Shown: positions 1 to 8,857 of the stretch, in pieces
Position numbering within the stretch: the first letter of the stretch is position 1
Layout of the letters: every line of letters starts with the position of its first letter
IMG/VR virus record: IMGVR_UViG_3300047488_000038
Coordinates: 1 to 26,664 of that record
Length of the DNA: 26,664 bases
Source: a virus
Strand: one strand, 5' to 3'
The notes under the pieces: model-generated
What the model was told of the DNA's origin: nothing
Seen by the model: only the letters and a program-made list of their open reading frames with translations
Databases searched by the model: none
Position numbers and translations under genes: made by a program

Positions 1-448
1 GTTCTGGAGGAGGAGGTGGAGGAGTTACAACCGGTGCCGGGGGAGGTGGGGGAGGTGTGTAAACTGGTTCTGGTGCAACATATACCGGAGGCGTATATAC
101 AGGTTCTGGCGTATAAACTGGTTCAGGTTCTACATACGCTGGTGGAGTATAAACTGGTTCAGGCGTATACACAGGTTCATTATAACTATAATCGTATGTT
201 GGAGCAATGAATTGTCCGCCACCAACATCTACAGGAATATATTCTGGTATACCATCATTTCCAATATTGTATGTGTCGTTGCTACTGTTTTGAGTACCCT
301 CATACATATTAAAGTTGCCTGGACTGAACACATCAGCAGGATTTACAGGTTGTGCATAGCCGGCGTTATAACCATATGGATCATTGAAATAATCTTCAAA
401 TCCATAATCTTCAAAATCTGTATAAAAATTGTTTTGCTGTATAGCCAT
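1..448 (-). CDS. Proline/tyrosine-rich structural-type protein, C-terminus outside window
   Basis: A partial gene: 149 codons are readable from the ATG at 448 to the window edge with no stop. The start is supported by AAAGG seven bases upstream. Residues 1-90 are rich in Asp, Asn, Tyr and Phe. From residue 91 the chain becomes a low-complexity array with five copies of EPVYTP (residues 91, 97, 109, 115 and 127), followed by two six-proline runs (132-137, 143-148). Such a sequence is probably extended or polyproline-II in form. It is the third gene after the tail-type protein at 1719-3908 and follows the 414-aa protein by 26 bases, so a virion role is likely from position only. I do not recognise a family and give no function. 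Confidence 0.8.
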   Translation of the reverse strand, partial: MAIQQNNFYTDFEDYGFEDYFNDPYGYNAGYAQPVNPADVFSPGNFNMYEGTQNSSNDTYNIGNDGIPEYIPVDVGGGQFIAPTYDYSYNEPVYTPEPVYTPPAYVEPEPVYTPEPVYTPPVYVAPEPVYTPPPPPPAPVVTPPPPPPE

Positions 449-474
449 CACTTAACCTTTTATATATTTAATCA

Positions 475-1719
475 TTATTGCTTGACAACTTGCGCGGTCA
501 AACTGCGTAGTCCTAAAGTTACAACGCCTGCTGTAGCATCTCCAGGATATACGATTTGTGTTACTGTTAATGTCATATCATTAGCAGGGCTTGCGCCGCC
601 CAAACTAGTGCCAGGTATGTTTAATATGTCTCCAACTTGGTATCCTGTACCAACATTGTTAATTAAAGCAAGAGTTGTGTTTTGTTCATAATTTAACCCA
701 TATCCTGTATCTATGTCTAAATCAATATCTAAACCTGCACCAGTACCAGTCACAGTCACAGGCAATAATCCTGTATAACTTGTATTCTGTGGTACGCTGA
801 CTCCACTTACTGAAATATTTTCTACGCCGCCTATCGCATAACTTGTTTTATATCTTGGTTTATTAGTGAATGCGAATTGTAATAGATACCAATAGTAACC
901 AAATGGTATCTCAGGACCATCAATGAATTGTGTAAAGATTGTTTCTAAATCAGTAATCGTTCCATTACCTGTGACATTATAATGATATCTTCGTTGTGCC
1001 AATGTCGTGATTGGTTCGTCAAAAACAAAGTCTGTGCTACCTGGGGCATTGCTAACATAACCAGTCAAGCGTTCAATACTTACTGTCACATCAAATTCGC
1101 TGTTTGGTATCGTGCTGTTATATTCTATATCACAAATCAATTGACCACTCACGAACACACGGTCTGTACCACCTGTCACATTAACACGACCATTACAATC
1201 TGTGCTTAATGTGAAATTCAATCTATTGAAACCAACATATCCACCGCTTACATATGGTGGATAACTATATAAATTGTTATATTGTATGATGACATAAGTG
1301 TTTGTACACGCAAATACTAATGAAGGACTGCTGGGCGGCCCATAATATGAACTGCTATCGTAATCGTTAGGGCTAAATCCACCAGCAAATATCCTGTCAC
1401 CAAATTGAAATGGTGGGCTAGTGAATGGTGTAGTGAATTGATATAACACATATCGTGTGCTTGTTAGACCAACTGGAGTACCATTTTCATCGCAACCAAA
1501 AGCGTTATTACACGATACCTGGCTAAACAGTGGCGTGGGTTCACTTGTGATAGGAGTCACAAATGGCTGACGGAAAGTTGGTTTAAGATACGCAGGAGTA
1601 TATGTGCTATAGCCTGCAAAGTTCTGTCCTAAGCCTGCAGGACCGCTCAACAAATAATTAACTGCGTCAACTACGCCTTCTTCATCACTATTCTCAACTG
1701 GATACTTTGCTACTGTCAT
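475..1719 (-). CDS. Phage virion structural protein with conserved GLGQNFAGYS-type N-terminus
   Basis: 414 aa. Residues 20-50 hold VNYLLSGPAGLGQNFAGYS, then YTPAYL and a Pro-Phe pair, a signature I associate with virion proteins of cyanophages and other aquatic phages (recalled, not searched). The middle is beta-rich and Thr/Ser/Tyr-rich, as in tail or fibre-attachment proteins. Residues 354-388 form a second module, GTGYQVGDILNIPGT followed by LGGASPAND, a small beta-domain that recurs in unrelated phage structural proteins. The start overlaps the stop of the 729-aa tail gene by one base (TAATG), so the two are probably translationally coupled. Likely a tail or fibre-associated component; the exact position in the virion cannot be told from sequence. 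Confidence 0.8.
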   Translation of the reverse strand: MTVAKYPVENSDEEGVVDAVNYLLSGPAGLGQNFAGYSTYTPAYLKPTFRQPFVTPITSEPTPLFSQVSCNNAFGCDENGTPVGLTSTRYVLYQFTTPFTSPPFQFGDRIFAGGFSPNDYDSSSYYGPPSSPSLVFACTNTYVIIQYNNLYSYPPYVSGGYVGFNRLNFTLSTDCNGRVNVTGGTDRVFVSGQLICDIEYNSTIPNSEFDVTVSIERLTGYVSNAPGSTDFVFDEPITTLAQRRYHYNVTGNGTITDLETIFTQFIDGPEIPFGYYWYLLQFAFTNKPRYKTSYAIGGVENISVSGVSVPQNTSYTGLLPVTVTGTGAGLDIDLDIDTGYGLNYEQNTTLALINNVGTGYQVGDILNIPGTSLGGASPANDMTLTVTQIVYPGDATAGVVTLGLRSLTAQVVKQ

Positions 1720-3939: not shown

Positions 3940-3947
3940 TATTTATG
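3940..3947 (-). promoter_or_regulatory. Late-promoter-like CATAAATA before the 729-aa tail gene
   Basis: On the minus strand TCATAAATATAAGATAC lies 31 bases before the ATG at 3908 and overlaps the stop codon of the glycosyltransferase gene. It resembles the T4 late -10 element TATAAATA, and the same core recurs before other structural blocks here. No -35 element is evident. Confidence 0.5.
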
Positions 3948-4725
3948 ACTTGTTGATTACTGACTTGTAGTATGGGCAAGTACCGATTATCCTGCTCATC
4001 TTAAAATACAGACTATCAACATTTAATGCGTGTGCGTCTTTTGCACTAGCCAATATAAAAAACTCACGCAATAAATCTAGGTTATACTGATGTTTGTCTA
4101 TGTTTGTGCTGAAATGCGTAACATCATGTTTTGGCTTGCTGATGACTATGCTGGCTGGACTTTCATTCATCCATCGTTCTATTAATTTAGTGTCATCGCT
4201 CAACACATACGCTACAGGCGCAAGTTGCCTACACCGTGCCCAATCTTCATCTGTGAATGTCCTATCAGTTCCACGAAGATGTACGACGGGTAAATCTATG
4301 ATAGGTTCAGTATAAATTTGTTCAACAATGTCTGGTCTTACACGCAAATGTTTAGTAAGCAATGGCATGTTGTATTCACGATAGCCAATGCCAGGCTGTA
4401 CCCATACATCAGTAAATTCGTTACATTTACTTATGTCAAAGACAAGTTGATCCTTCATGTCATAGACCCAAGTATGTGCAGGTAGCATGAGTTTGTGATT
4501 CCAAAAGTGTGGATGTACCGTGCTAGTTTTAGGTATCTTACGATAATCGTCTATGTAATGTAGATCCTCAAAGTAGAAGTAATCGTAGAAACTTGTACCC
4601 CAGATATCGTCTGTCCAATCTACATACAATGTGCGATTATAGCGTAGACTACAGGTTACTGCATAACTTAAACATTGTAGTCTATCACTAAAACCTTCCC
4701 ATCCTTTGACTACAAGGTATTTCAT
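3943..4725 (-). CDS. Fucosyltransferase-like glycosyltransferase (GT23/O-FucT superfamily type)
   Basis: 260 aa. The N-terminus GFSDRLQCLSYAVTCSLRYN followed by RTLYVDW (residues 11-37) resembles the opening loop of GDP-fucose-using enzymes such as NodZ/FUT8-type transferases. HLRGTDR at 149-155 matches the FUT8-type peptide motif I (HVRRTDK), whose Arg contacts the GDP-sugar. No signal peptide or membrane segment is seen, so it is probably cytoplasmic. The start overlaps the epimerase stop by four bases (ATGA). Family knowledge indicates a GDP-L-hexose donor; because the neighbour should make GDP-L-galactose or a related GDP sugar, I infer transfer of L-galactose or similar. The acceptor (virion protein, host glycan or DNA) is unknown. 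Confidence 0.65.
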   Translation of the reverse strand: MKYLVVKGWEGFSDRLQCLSYAVTCSLRYNRTLYVDWTDDIWGTSFYDYFYFEDLHYIDDYRKIPKTSTVHPHFWNHKLMLPAHTWVYDMKDQLVFDISKCNEFTDVWVQPGIGYREYNMPLLTKHLRVRPDIVEQIYTEPIIDLPVVHLRGTDRTFTDEDWARCRQLAPVAYVLSDDTKLIERWMNESPASIVISKPKHDVTHFSTNIDKHQYNLDLLREFFILASAKDAHALNVDSLYFKMSRIIGTCPYYKSVINKS

Positions 4726-5693
4726 TTGATATCTGTCAATCCATTATCAATGCGGCTCTTGATCCAATCGTATGTTTGTTTTAATCCATATTCTAAGTTG
4801 TTATCTGGAGTCCAACCCAATACACTCTTAATCAATGTATTGTCGCTGTTACGGCCATTGACGCCAATTGGTCCTGGCACATTGTTAATGACTACACTCT
4901 TGTTACCAATATCTGCAACCATATGTACAAGTTCATTAATAGATATCATACGGTCGCTACCCAAATTTAATGGTTTGTCATAGTCAGATTCCATAATCTT
5001 AAGTATGCCAGTGATGCATTCGTCAATATACAAAAAACTTCTAGTTTGACGACCATTGCCCCATATGTCTACAACTTGTTTACTATTGATAACTTTGCGG
5101 CAAATGGCTGCTGGGCTTTTCTCACGCCCATTATCGTAGGCGCCTAATGGCCCATAAACATTATGCAGTCTGGCAATACGACAGTTTAGATTATAGTTCC
5201 GTGCATAAGTCATGTAAAGTCTTTCGGAAAACAGTTTCTCCCAACCATACTCACTATCTGGGTCTGCAGGGTAAGCACTATCTTCACATAGATTTGGCGT
5301 CAAGTAATCAGTCTGATTATGTCTTGGATACATGCAAGCACTACTGGTATAGAATACATTCTTGATGCCTCTATCTACCATACTGTCAAGTATGTTTAAG
5401 TTGATTTGACAACTATTATGCATGATATCGGCATCGTTGTCACCTGTAAAGATATAGCCGGCGCCGCCCATGTCAGCGGCTAATTGATAGATTTCGTCAA
5501 TCTCTTGGCTTAACAAATGTTTAACCGTTCGTTGGTCACGCAAGTCCACAACATAGAACTCATGTGCTAATGTTTTTTCATAGGCTGGATGATAAAGGTC
5601 TGCGCCTATAACATGATGACCTTGATTAACAAGTTTTTTAACTAAGTGGTGTCCTATAAATCCACCTGCCCCACATACTAATATTCGTTTCAT
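4722..5693 (-). CDS. GDP-mannose 3,5-epimerase-like SDR enzyme
   Basis: 323 aa from the ATG at 5693, chosen because AAAGGA lies seven bases upstream; the open frame reaches 5753 only through a weak upstream start. Extended SDR fold: GAGGFIG (residues 8-14) binds NAD, and YGWEK (149-153) supplies the Tyr-Lys pair. The match to plant GDP-mannose 3,5-epimerase is strong: AADMGGAGYI (72-81), SSAC with C120 at the place of catalytic Cys145, GREKSPAA (189-196) with K192 at the place of Lys217, WGNGRQTRSFLYIDEC (211-226) and VPGPIGVNGRNSDNTLIK (272-289). The expected reaction is GDP-D-mannose to GDP-L-galactose, in the cytoplasm. It is coupled to the transferase gene that follows. A related 4,6-dehydratase or GDP-fucose synthase is less likely given C120 and K192. 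Confidence 0.85.
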   Translation of the reverse strand: MKRILVCGAGGFIGHHLVKKLVNQGHHVIGADLYHPAYEKTLAHEFYVVDLRDQRTVKHLLSQEIDEIYQLAADMGGAGYIFTGDNDADIMHNSCQINLNILDSMVDRGIKNVFYTSSACMYPRHNQTDYLTPNLCEDSAYPADPDSEYGWEKLFSERLYMTYARNYNLNCRIARLHNVYGPLGAYDNGREKSPAAICRKVINSKQVVDIWGNGRQTRSFLYIDECITGILKIMESDYDKPLNLGSDRMISINELVHMVADIGNKSVVINNVPGPIGVNGRNSDNTLIKSVLGWTPDNNLEYGLKQTYDWIKSRIDNGLTDIK

Positions 5694-5725
5694 TTCTGTT
5701 CCTTTAAGAAAAATTTTGAATGAAA

Positions 5726-6001
5726 TCAATTGTCTAAGACAATTGGCTTCCATACTCTACCATCAACTGTTTTTATGTTCAGTTCTTCAATATCATTACG
5801 CAACTGACGGCGTAACACAGTTGCTTGACATATATGCTTTTTGGCTACATATACTGTCTTTAATGATTGCCCACATTTACCGCAACTATAGCCAATAAAA
5901 CGCCAAATCTTGTTTTTTCTGTCAAAACCCACACTTACATTTAAGTTTTTACGATTTGGTAACAGATTTTCAGTAACAATATCATGTATTTTTGGCTTCA
6001 T
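5726..6001 (-). CDS. Small zinc-finger-like protein next to the iteron array
   Basis: 91 aa, pI probably basic. CGKC (residues 40-43) followed by HIC (56-58) gives a possible C2HC zinc site; LRRQLRNDIEEL is a likely helix. No family recognised. There is no clear ribosome-binding site: the ATG follows TAAATAGTAG, and in-frame stops lie directly upstream, so the start cannot move upstream. It sits between the six-iteron array (12 bases upstream) and the epimerase gene. A role binding the array or in replication control is possible from position but unproven. A short inverted repeat (CAATTGTC/GACAATTG, 5727-5745) overlaps its stop. Confidence 0.7.
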   Translation of the reverse strand: MKPKIHDIVTENLLPNRKNLNVSVGFDRKNKIWRFIGYSCGKCGQSLKTVYVAKKHICQATVLRRQLRNDIEELNIKTVDGRVWKPIVLDN

Positions 6002-6013
6002 CTACTATTTAAC

Positions 6014-6155
6014 TAGCGTAGAACAGTAGCGTAGAAAGCCAGCGTATTTTAGGTTTTTTTATTATTTTCTAGAAAAAAATATTTTTTATTTTTTTTTTTG
6101 ATTTCGCTAAAAAAACACGATTTACGCTGGTGTTCTACGCTGGACTTCTACGCTA
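6014..6155. repeat. Inverted sets of three 13-bp iterons around an AT-rich core; candidate replication origin
   Basis: Three direct copies of AGCGTA(GAA) begin at 6015, 6028 and 6041. Three copies in the opposite orientation end at 6128, 6141 and 6154. Every step is exactly 13 bp. The 76 bp between the sets (6047-6122) is nearly pure A/T with runs of T. The array lies between the helicase stop (6158) and the start of the zinc-finger-like gene. Phased iterons beside an AT-rich unwinding region, next to primase and helicase genes, fit a replication origin of the lambda O or plasmid type. A terminator cruciform or autoregulatory operator cannot be excluded. Confidence 0.75.
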
Positions 6156-6157
6156 TT

Positions 6158-7927
6158 TTACCGTAATTCATCACGAATACTGAACACATTAATCTTTTCT
6201 CCCACAGTTGTACCCTTTTCATCTGTAGCATCTGTATCAATAAAGTCTGTAATATTAAACATATAACTTTCTGGAACATTTAGTTTGTTCTGTACAACAG
6301 TCATTTTGCGTCTATCTTCGTTTCTACAGCCTTTCCATGTATAGCAATCTACAGTAACTTCTTCACAGTCCCAACCCATATGATTGTTGAGCCAATACAT
6401 CATTTCATTCTTGAAATAATCTTTCTTACATTTCTGACTTTCTGCGGCTTCATATAGTTTATGTGCTTGTGTGATATTAATGACTGTGCTGATACCCATA
6501 CCCATCAAATTCATGAATTTTGGCATGAATCCATCAATACCCTTTTTCTGTCTTGTAAGCATCTCAGTATAATACTTTCCATGCAATGGTAGTAATTCAG
6601 TCATGTTTTTAGCGTTGTGTTTAGTGATAATATGACCCAACCATTCGCTAATTCTAGTCTCGTTTTTATAGTATTTTTGTTGCCATTCTTTAATCAATAT
6701 AGTCATTGCTTTGATTGTTGCTTCATCAGGAATCTCATTGATATTATTGATAAGTTTGTGATAAAACGCTAAATGTCGTGGCAAGTTAACTCTAGCAATG
6801 ATAGGCTCAAATCTGCGATCCTCACCACTTGTGCCTGTCCCTGCTAGTTTTGCTGTGCTTGTAAAGCCATTTCTAAAAAAGATAAAACTAAACAATCTTG
6901 CTACATCTCTAGCATCTTTATTCATAGCACGATGACGATAACGATTGCTACCTGTGAACTCTTTGACTTTATCAATTGGCACGCTATAACTGTCTTTTTC
7001 ATCAACTTTAATGACCATTTTACCAAACAAGTCACCATTATGTGTGCCCTTGAATGTCTCTGTACCTACGCTACCACAGCATTCATCAGTAAAAATACTG
7101 CGTAGTATATTGTAAAAAGTATCACGCCCTGTGCCACCAATAGCACAACTGTCAATGTTTGGAACCATAACATCTTGTGGATTACAATAACGATATGCTA
7201 CCCACTTTTCTAATTGATCCGCATAGTCATCATCTCCGCCCGCAATACTCAATAACAACAATCTAAAACTATCATGTGGAGTTACATCATAGATTGGCTC
7301 TAACCATTGCTTACGAATAGTGTTCATCTGATTGTATACGCCAGGCCTATCTGGTTCAAAGTCACGAACCATATGTTTATACATTCTGCCAAGTTCTTTT
7401 GCTAATGCTTTTAATTCTTGTTCAACTTGTATCTCACGACCACTGTCATTGAAAATCAAGTCTTTGATGACGCCTGCTTCACTACTGTTAATCTTGACGC
7501 TCATTCTATCGCCAGCTGGATCTACTGACCACCATTGCTGGTCAAAGATGATGTAATGTATATTGTGTTCGTCAAAGACTTTTTCCGCTGTATTTTTATT
7601 ACTTTCTTTGTTCTTTTGTTCATACTTTTTTGCGTTATATTTCTTAAGACTAAACTTAGCCTCACTTAATATCTTTTCATCGTTTTCAACATTCTTTTTC
7701 CATTGTTTAATTTGCTCTGTCAATGCCTTGATATCGTTTTTGAGTTGTTGTTTTTGTTTTCTGTCTGTTGTTAATGGCTCGTTAATTTTTAATGTGCTTA
7801 ATGTATCATCAGCATCATTAATCTTATCACGCCAGTTATCAATATCACGCTGTTTTTGCTGTATTTGTTTTTGTAATTCATCTACTAATCTTTGTTCATC
7901 TGTTAACATTTCTATTACCTGACTCAT
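6158..7927 (-). CDS. SF3/D5-type replicative helicase (DUF5906-like) with atypical Walker A
   Basis: 589 aa. Residues 10-110 are Lys/Glu/Gln-rich and predicted coiled coil. The ATPase core follows: a P-loop-like GGTGRDTF (264-271), a Walker B-like KMVIKVDE (303-310) and EDRRF (369-373), which in DUF5906-type primase-helicases holds the arginine finger. The invariant Walker A lysine appears to be R268, unusual for an active ATPase. The start overlaps the primase stop by four bases (ATGA) with AAGGA upstream. Together with the primase it would form the phage's priming and unwinding machine, split over two polypeptides rather than fused. The iteron array lies immediately after the stop. Confidence 0.75.
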   Translation of the reverse strand: MSQVIEMLTDEQRLVDELQKQIQQKQRDIDNWRDKINDADDTLSTLKINEPLTTDRKQKQQLKNDIKALTEQIKQWKKNVENDEKILSEAKFSLKKYNAKKYEQKNKESNKNTAEKVFDEHNIHYIIFDQQWWSVDPAGDRMSVKINSSEAGVIKDLIFNDSGREIQVEQELKALAKELGRMYKHMVRDFEPDRPGVYNQMNTIRKQWLEPIYDVTPHDSFRLLLLSIAGGDDDYADQLEKWVAYRYCNPQDVMVPNIDSCAIGGTGRDTFYNILRSIFTDECCGSVGTETFKGTHNGDLFGKMVIKVDEKDSYSVPIDKVKEFTGSNRYRHRAMNKDARDVARLFSFIFFRNGFTSTAKLAGTGTSGEDRRFEPIIARVNLPRHLAFYHKLINNINEIPDEATIKAMTILIKEWQQKYYKNETRISEWLGHIITKHNAKNMTELLPLHGKYYTEMLTRQKKGIDGFMPKFMNLMGMGISTVINITQAHKLYEAAESQKCKKDYFKNEMMYWLNNHMGWDCEEVTVDCYTWKGCRNEDRRKMTVVQNKLNVPESYMFNITDFIDTDATDEKGTTVGEKINVFSIRDELR

Positions 7928-8772
7928 TTCTTTTTCCTTAATTTTATTTGTAATTCTAACAGTTCTCTATCGTCCCTGCTAATACCGCTTAATTTAATCA
8001 ATGTACCTAATGTGGGCCCATGTCCTTGACGCCACGCATGTAAGGTACTTTTTTCTTTTTTAGTTTTATAGGGCCAATGTTTTAGCATCAAATGTACTGC
8101 ACTTTGTATGCCAACTGCACTACATGTTGCCCATGCAATCGTACGCCAAACATCATAATCTCCTTGTAAGTGCCCAACTTTATTTTTAATCCTAGTCAAC
8201 AATTCATCAACATAATATTGGTCAACTTCTATAGGTTCATATGTTGTTTGTGGAATGTTATCATACTTAGTATGTTCTTCAAGCATGAGATTTAGCCAAT
8301 ATACAAGTATCTGTTCTGGTAATTCTAATACATTAACTTCACTAGGCTTTTTGATCCATACATATTCACGCCCATCATTTAATGTACTTGGTGGCAATAT
8401 GCTTTGTGTGTTAGTCCAACGAAACTCTAGTTTGTTGACAACCTTGCGTTTCAATACATCCCAATATATCTCTGGTATTGTAAACGCAGCCTGCATACGA
8501 TATTCTTTGCCACTAGTCCACATCACAGTATCTAAACTTGTGATATCAATCTCTGGAAAAGTATTGTTGAAATGGTCTATTGCTTCAATGCCATCAAAGT
8601 CAATGGCACAAAGCCCAGCACTAGCTGGGCCTAATACAACGCCAATATTGTTTGTTGTGATTTCACTTAATGTATGTGGATGTTTTTGCCAACCATTACC
8701 AATCGGCACCTTCTCACCATTCTTGATGTTAACATAACGCCATGGTAAATTACTCAATTCTTTGTTTATCAT
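7924..8772 (-). CDS. AEP-type DNA primase (Prim-Pol domain plus PriCT-like C-terminus)
   Basis: 282 aa from the ATG at 8772, chosen because AAAGGA is seven bases upstream; an ATG at 8778 is only one base from it. Residue numbers below are from 8778. The N-terminal half matches bifunctional primase/polymerase domains: KVPIGNGWQKHP (23-34), LCAIDFDG (56-63) with the metal-binding D60 and D62, TSGKEYRMQAAF (88-99), and EFRWTNTQSILPPS (118-131). Residues 205-265 (DYDVWRTIAWATCS, then HAWRQGHG) resemble the PriCT_2 module. The expected role is synthesis of primers for replication. It overlaps the 35-aa membrane-protein gene upstream by 23 bases and the helicase downstream by four. Confidence 0.8.
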   Translation of the reverse strand: MINKELSNLPWRYVNIKNGEKVPIGNGWQKHPHTLSEITTNNIGVVLGPASAGLCAIDFDGIEAIDHFNNTFPEIDITSLDTVMWTSGKEYRMQAAFTIPEIYWDVLKRKVVNKLEFRWTNTQSILPPSTLNDGREYVWIKKPSEVNVLELPEQILVYWLNLMLEEHTKYDNIPQTTYEPIEVDQYYVDELLTRIKNKVGHLQGDYDVWRTIAWATCSAVGIQSAVHLMLKHWPYKTKKEKSTLHAWRQGHGPTLGTLIKLSGISRDDRELLELQIKLRKKK

Positions 8773-8857
8773 TGACATATCCTTTCAATACATGTATCGT
8801 ATACAATTCTAATACAATCACACTAACTGCCCATATTAATAATAATGTCGTATACAT
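8750..8857 (-). CDS. 35-aa predicted single-pass membrane peptide
   Basis: Starts at the ATG at 8857 with AAAGGAAAA upstream and ends at TAA 8750-8752, inside the primase start. The sequence opens MYTTLLLIWAVSVIVLEL, a short hydrophobic helix, followed by a charged tail. It lies directly after the 55-aa membrane protein and overlaps the primase by 23 bases, so it belongs to the same operon. Function is unknown; it is too short for family assignment. The good ribosome-binding site and tight packing argue that it is translated. Confidence 0.55.
   Translation of the reverse strand: MYTTLLLIWAVSVIVLELYTIHVLKGYVNDKQRIE

Follow-up and report, generated by a model that had tools for sequence, protein, structure and literature searches.

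Introduction

The origin of phage lambda is made of iterons beside an AT-rich region. These iterons are direct repeats inside the O gene, and O is not a helicase and requires the loader P.

In three described systems an origin element follows the primase-helicase gene on its 3' side, namely P4 with alpha/crr (NC_001609), PICI/SaPI (PMC6092414) and pRN1 (PMC4234260). In P4, iteron clusters of opposite orientation (+,+ then -,-) lie directly 3' of the primase-helicase gene, with a terminator between (NC_001609). The crr comprises two 120-bp units in which 8-bp repeats are spaced by 9-18 bp, with about 70% A/T between them, a separate ori lies about 4.5 kb away, and alpha is one fused primase-helicase protein. 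In PICI/SaPI, the primase and the initiator helicase are followed by an origin immediately 3' of rep, in which two iteron sets flank an AT-rich region (PMC6092414). The repeats downstream are bound by the C-terminal domain of SaPI Rep and of SCCmec Cch2 (PMC7581432). The Cch2 repeats lie directly downstream of its own gene and are direct 5-nt AAGTG repeats; inverted repeats are dispensable for binding, and the accompanying polymerase belongs to the A family (PMC7581432). The pRN1 protein orf904 is a fused Prim-Pol/SF3 protein whose origin, an inverted repeat of about 100 bp 3' of the gene, is described as a hairpin without iterons (PMC4234260).

Few origins have been identified in uncultured tailed phages that use Prim-Pol/SF3-type replication. 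Here we describe a very probable one which is recognisable from the sequence. Its layout, which was considered unique to PICIs in a 2018 study, is thereby found outside satellites.

The locus and its mirrored array

The window, i.e. the whole stretch of DNA analysed here, is an entire virus record of 26,664 bp; being a complete record, it is possibly a genome fragment. It encodes the terminase, SU10-type portal and major head protein of a tailed phage, and the minus strand carries nearly all of its likely genes. The array at 6014-6155 occupies the gap between a helicase gene ending at 6158 and a gene for a 91-aa protein starting at 6001, with the array just upstream of the start codon of the latter. 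The features of the region are:

7924-8778, minus strand: Prim-Pol (primase-polymerase), 284 aa, Pfam PF09250 (E 1e-14), upstream of the helicase and overlapping its start by 4 bp
6158-7927, minus strand: SF3/D5-like helicase, 589 aa (Pfam DUF5906), stop codon 3 bp from the array, proposed self-loading initiator
7118-7138, minus strand: variant Walker A GGTGRDT, helicase residues 264-270, from alignment, with Arg instead of Lys
6278-6502, minus strand: predicted winged-helix-like domain, helicase residues 476-550, AlphaFold order E-H-H-E-E, proposed iteron reader
6123-6154, minus strand: right iteron triplet, mirrored, with AGCGTA at 6123-6128 and AGCGTAGAA at 6133-6141 and 6146-6154, 13-bp steps
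6047-6122, no strand: AT-rich core, 76 bp, 86% A/T, candidate melting site
6015-6046, plus strand: left iteron triplet, with AGCGTAGAA at 6015-6023 and 6028-6036 and AGCGTA at 6041-6046, 13-bp steps
5726-6001, minus strand: small 91-aa protein with C-x2-C...H-x-C (C2HC-like), the next gene after the array, not found beside some arrays

AGCGTA occurs six times in the array, three times forward and three times reversed, at exact 13-bp steps, and four copies are extended to AGCGTAGAA. A preliminary description of this DNA had noted six copies in two mirrored triplets with shortened innermost copies, flanked by a helicase and a small zinc-finger-like gene, and we confirmed all of this, including the coordinates. 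It had also called the 76-bp core almost pure A/T; the length and the AT richness hold, but the content is 86%.

Beyond the four outer copies in the array, exact AGCGTAGAA was found nowhere in the window. For AGCGTA-N7-AGCGTA with at most one mismatch, we observed 4 occurrences against 0.07 expected. Dinucleotide-preserving shuffles (n=400) gave an expectation of 0.07 per window for mirrored 2+2 arrays with a single period, and a mirrored 3+3 array did not appear in any of the 400. A hexamer scan returned this array as the sole mirrored equal-period hexamer array in the window. Among all 60-bp stretches of the window, the one starting at 6045 is the least stable; at a length of 76 bp, the core ranks fifth. 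GC skew, which had been put forward as a check of the origin, showed no turning point at the array.

Further along, two genes at 3943-5753 lie between the replication and tail genes; one encodes a NAD-dependent sugar epimerase, the other a 260-aa protein without family assignment. This gene pair is missing from the corresponding place in the related genome G019.

Arrays beside homologous helicases

We found no relatives of the window helicase among cultured phages, and a cultured-phage search with the helicase of a relative gave only a weak match to a Vibrio phage. A scan of genome contigs for helicase relatives also found none. IMG/VR contained six independent relatives with about 50-67% identity to the window helicase: G019/L103 (67%), L224 (62%), L225 (59%), L226 (56%), L233 (51%) and L146/G041 (about 50-51%). 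L102 is a second record of G019/L103, 99.96% identical over 11 kb.

In five of the six, mirrored repeats follow on the 3' side of the helicase stop, at most 0.3 kb from it, with changed repeat words (TGAGTAGAA, [AT]GAGTAGAA, TGCGTAGA, GTGTATAGAA and GCGTAGAA):

G019: TGAGTAGAA-type, 3+2 at 13 bp, core of 79 bp with 89% A/T
L224: [AT]GAGTA, 3+3 at 12-13 bp
L225: [AT]GCGTA, 2+3, irregular steps, core of only 44% A/T
L226: GTGTAT, 2+2 at 13 bp, inside a long, nearly perfect inverted repeat
L233: GCGTAGA, 3+3, irregular steps, 3' of the helicase stop and separated from it by about 180 bp that include a small ORF

The distance between the inner copies was 76, 79, 77, 75, 86 and 82 bp across the six arrays, window included (range 75-86). 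The offsets from the helicase stop are nearly the same in L224 (3, 15, 28/116, 129, 142) and the window (3, 16, 29/116, 129, 142), and the innermost copy is degenerate in the window, G019 and L224. Since the layout is kept while the repeat word changes, the array is very probably the replication origin of the phage, whichever mechanism operates there.

The preliminary description had proposed an origin, had likened its iterons and AT-rich core to lambda-type origins, and had suggested a search for the same array near helicase genes of related phages. Five of the six relatives, with their conserved place and 75-86 bp core, strongly support the origin, though with changed words. The likeness to lambda was not borne out. 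Lambda-type origins have direct iterons within the initiator gene, whereas this array is intergenic, mirrored and 3' of the helicase, as in P4 crr and PICI/SaPI (PMC6092414, PMC7581432). Related phages with the same genes and no array had been named as evidence against the origin, and there is one such case: L146/G041 has a homologous helicase, and we found no array beside it. In G041, a 16-bp inverted repeat, GGTGTGTAATCGGGGT, surrounds about 62 bp without clear iterons 2.4 kb 3' of the helicase (L236:18303-18391) and is possibly a displaced origin.

We also scored the loci with a leave-one-out motif model, in which a weight matrix built from the iterons of the other species scans for mirrored inward-facing pairs. 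This model replaced an exact-hexamer statistic under which the array regions of L224, L226, L233, L144, L155 and L156 failed to stand out from background, as it was too strict for degenerate copies. In five of the six arrays, window included, the best place of the whole 6-27 kb locus was the helicase stop (window, L103, L224 and L225) or just after it (L233). The top place scored 37-45 bits against 26-32 for the runner-up, 11-14 bits ahead. As the iterons that entered the matrices had been picked by eye in these same regions, this is a consistency check and no blind test. The model misses L226 because its word has changed too far; recurrence in L226 is evidenced by the 2+2 array in the long inverted repeat.

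The helicase and its C-terminal domain

The window helicase belongs to DUF5906 (Pfam PF19263, E 5e-8, 34 bits against a cut-off of 27.6) and also matches PHROG 1156 (DNA primase, helicase part). All six aligned family members have GGTGR[DE]T as Walker A, which deviates from the canonical GxxxxGK[ST]. Because Arg replaces Lys in these members, an active SF3/AAA+ helicase is not assured, and the ATPase may be altered.

The AlphaFold model of the C-terminal part shows, at residues about 482-547, the winged-helix succession of one strand, then two helices, then two further strands. Its confidence is modest, with a mean pLDDT of 64 and about 59-85 by block in the winged-helix region. Fold matches in the PDB were mostly winged-helix proteins, none of them significant. 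A model of the full-length helicase was poor (pLDDT 50), with mostly coiled coils among its fold matches, and was rejected. The identity of the predicted winged-helix region to that of the window is 64% in L102, 60% in L224 and 55% in L225, which keep related words. It is 41% in L226, with the most changed word, and 38% in L146, with no array. With these five comparisons, it is only suggestive that divergence of the domain tracks word change or array absence.

Comparison with described origins and proposed mechanism

The window shares with P4 the opposite-orientation iterons 3' of a primase-SF3 helicase. Unlike in P4, the primase and the helicase are separate genes, and the 26.7-kb record holds one array, with neither a crr duplication nor a separate ori. 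The order of primase, helicase and a 3' candidate origin with two iteron sets is that of PICI/SaPI, down to an AT-rich region between the sets. Unlike these satellites, the window carries its own terminase, portal and capsid genes, has no integrase match among the proteins scanned, and differs by its DUF5906 helicase and its 13-bp phasing. The inverted-repeat origin of pRN1, 3' of a Prim-Pol/SF3 gene, is similar in place but differs in the fused protein and the hairpin without iterons. Cch2 offers a parallel for a helicase C-terminal domain that binds repeats directly downstream of its own gene, while its repeats are direct and its polymerase is not a Prim-Pol. The array resembles P4 crr and PICI origins; it is neither PICI nor lambda-type and represents a variant layout in full tailed phages.

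By analogy with P4, PICI/SaPI and pRN1, we propose that the origin is probably bound by the DUF5906 helicase through its C-terminal domain, with two opposed rings loading at the core. The winged-helix domain would bind the 13-bp-phased iterons, and each triplet would nucleate one helicase ring. Owing to the mirror layout, the rings would stand opposite one another on either side of the 76-bp AT-rich core, where the DNA would melt. The Prim-Pol would then prime both strands, leading to bidirectional replication, probably with proteins of the host replisome. A 13-bp step corresponds to a turn of about 86 degrees on B-DNA and would suit subunits arranged around the helix. Several points speak against an origin read by the helicase, namely L146/G041 without an array, the 44% A/T core of L225, the variant Walker A, the modest winged-helix model and the lack of a GC-skew turning point. 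The relatives represent several candidate origin/helicase pairs with different words, so the origin-reading domain is directly testable by swaps.

Mirrored arrays in the wider phage group

Using a tail protein as an anchor, we collected 80 loci of the same phage group. The majority had neither a matched helicase nor an array; many of the loci are short, and the frequency of arrays in the group is not inferable from them. In four phages (L168, L144, L155 and L205) mirrored arrays lie 3' of other helicase types, and in L156 the array is on the other side:

L168/G018: DUF3987 helicase, AGAGTAGCA at 9 bp, 3' of the helicase
L144: DUF3987 helicase, GTAGCAAA, 3' of the helicase
L155: VapE-like helicase, GTAGCAGATA at 10 bp, 3' of the helicase
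L205: distant DUF5906, AGCGTAACA at 8-9 bp, 3' of the helicase, words pointing away from the core
L156/G016: DUF3987, GTTAGCA, between a zinc-finger gene and the replication genes

A GTAG- or GCGTA-like core is common to the arrays, even beside unrelated helicases (L144, L155, L168, window, L103). The replication modules of L168, L156, L144, L155, L205 and L146 are mosaic, combining primases of two types with helicases of three or more families in changing pairs, and such modules of the group often adjoin a mirrored array.

We tentatively consider that the mirrored-iteron origin may be a stable unit, in which the place and the core of about 80 bp are kept while the word is recoded and the helicase family exchanged (DUF5906, DUF3987, VapE-like). 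Such units would form a natural series of origin/initiator pairs and link PICI replicons with full-size tailed phages, although this broader view is less likely to hold than to fail.

Alternative explanations

The iterons of the origin could have another reader that then recruits the helicase, be it a host factor, the Prim-Pol or the small zinc-finger protein. A shared reader would fit the recurrence of GTAG beside unrelated helicases (GTAGAA here, GTAGCA in L144, L155 and L168, GTTAGCA in L156), and a zinc-finger gene stands beside several arrays. However, we found no zinc-finger homologue in the array-bearing L225, L226 and L233, which are fragment records, and L224 gave a weak, non-significant match. 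This makes the zinc-finger protein unlikely as a general reader. Moreover, two unlike primase types (PF09250-type and another) are paired with arrays, and it is the helicase that consistently adjoins the 13-bp arrays. We consider a reader other than the helicase unlikely.

It is also rather improbable that the array acts as a structured RNA or cruciform, be it a terminator, a processing site or a pRN1-like origin where the hairpin matters and not the repeats. The array strand folds strongly in the window (z -9.7 as RNA, -8.1 as DNA) and in L226 (z -13.7 as RNA), which leaves room for a hairpin role, in L226 above all, and the pRN1 stem-loop is a precedent (PMC4234260). A stem, however, needs no direct 13-bp repetition. 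The repeat words of the two arms are identical in the window, while the spacers are largely unpaired (about 2 of 8 positions pair), which favours protein sites. In L225 and L226, a distinct terminator-like hairpin occurs between the helicase stop and the array, so the array is more than a terminator and a terminator role is unlikely. Rfam gave no match above gathering for the array, only sub-threshold hairpin look-alikes.

An operator role of the array, with control of the genes on its 3' side, would agree with the position just upstream of the start codon of the 91-aa gene. Yet the downstream gene varies among the relatives (the 91-aa zinc finger, a 141-aa protein and others), whereas the upstream helicase is constant, and we found no promoter-like site within the array on the coding strand. 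Control of the downstream gene is therefore very unlikely.

Partition, recombination and packaging sites can have mirrored repeats, but the array has a replication helicase as its conserved partner, a scan of window proteins showed no partition or integrase gene, and about 16 kb separate the array from the large terminase gene, making such a site extremely improbable.

Similar repeats in other viral sequences

The region 3' of the primase in BPP-1 has no inverted repeat of 12 or more. Mica, Mano, BT19, Javan469 and 1.111.A, which comprise cultured VapE phages, one satellite and one Vibrio phage, have no clear mirrored hexamer array. In the Streptococcus satellite phage Javan469 (L242:4360-4690), ACTAC/GTAGT words flank an AT-rich stretch 3' of a rep-like gene, but the pattern is too weak.

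Triplets of AGCGTA at 13 bp were found elsewhere in IMG/VR on eight contigs, none of which (0/8) has a helicase relative. Tandem 13-bp repeats containing AGCGTA also occur on the unrelated viral contigs L003, L004, L005, L006 and L007. In L005/L007, two long arrays (25-56, minus strand, and 459-568, plus strand) face apart, with about 400 bp between them.
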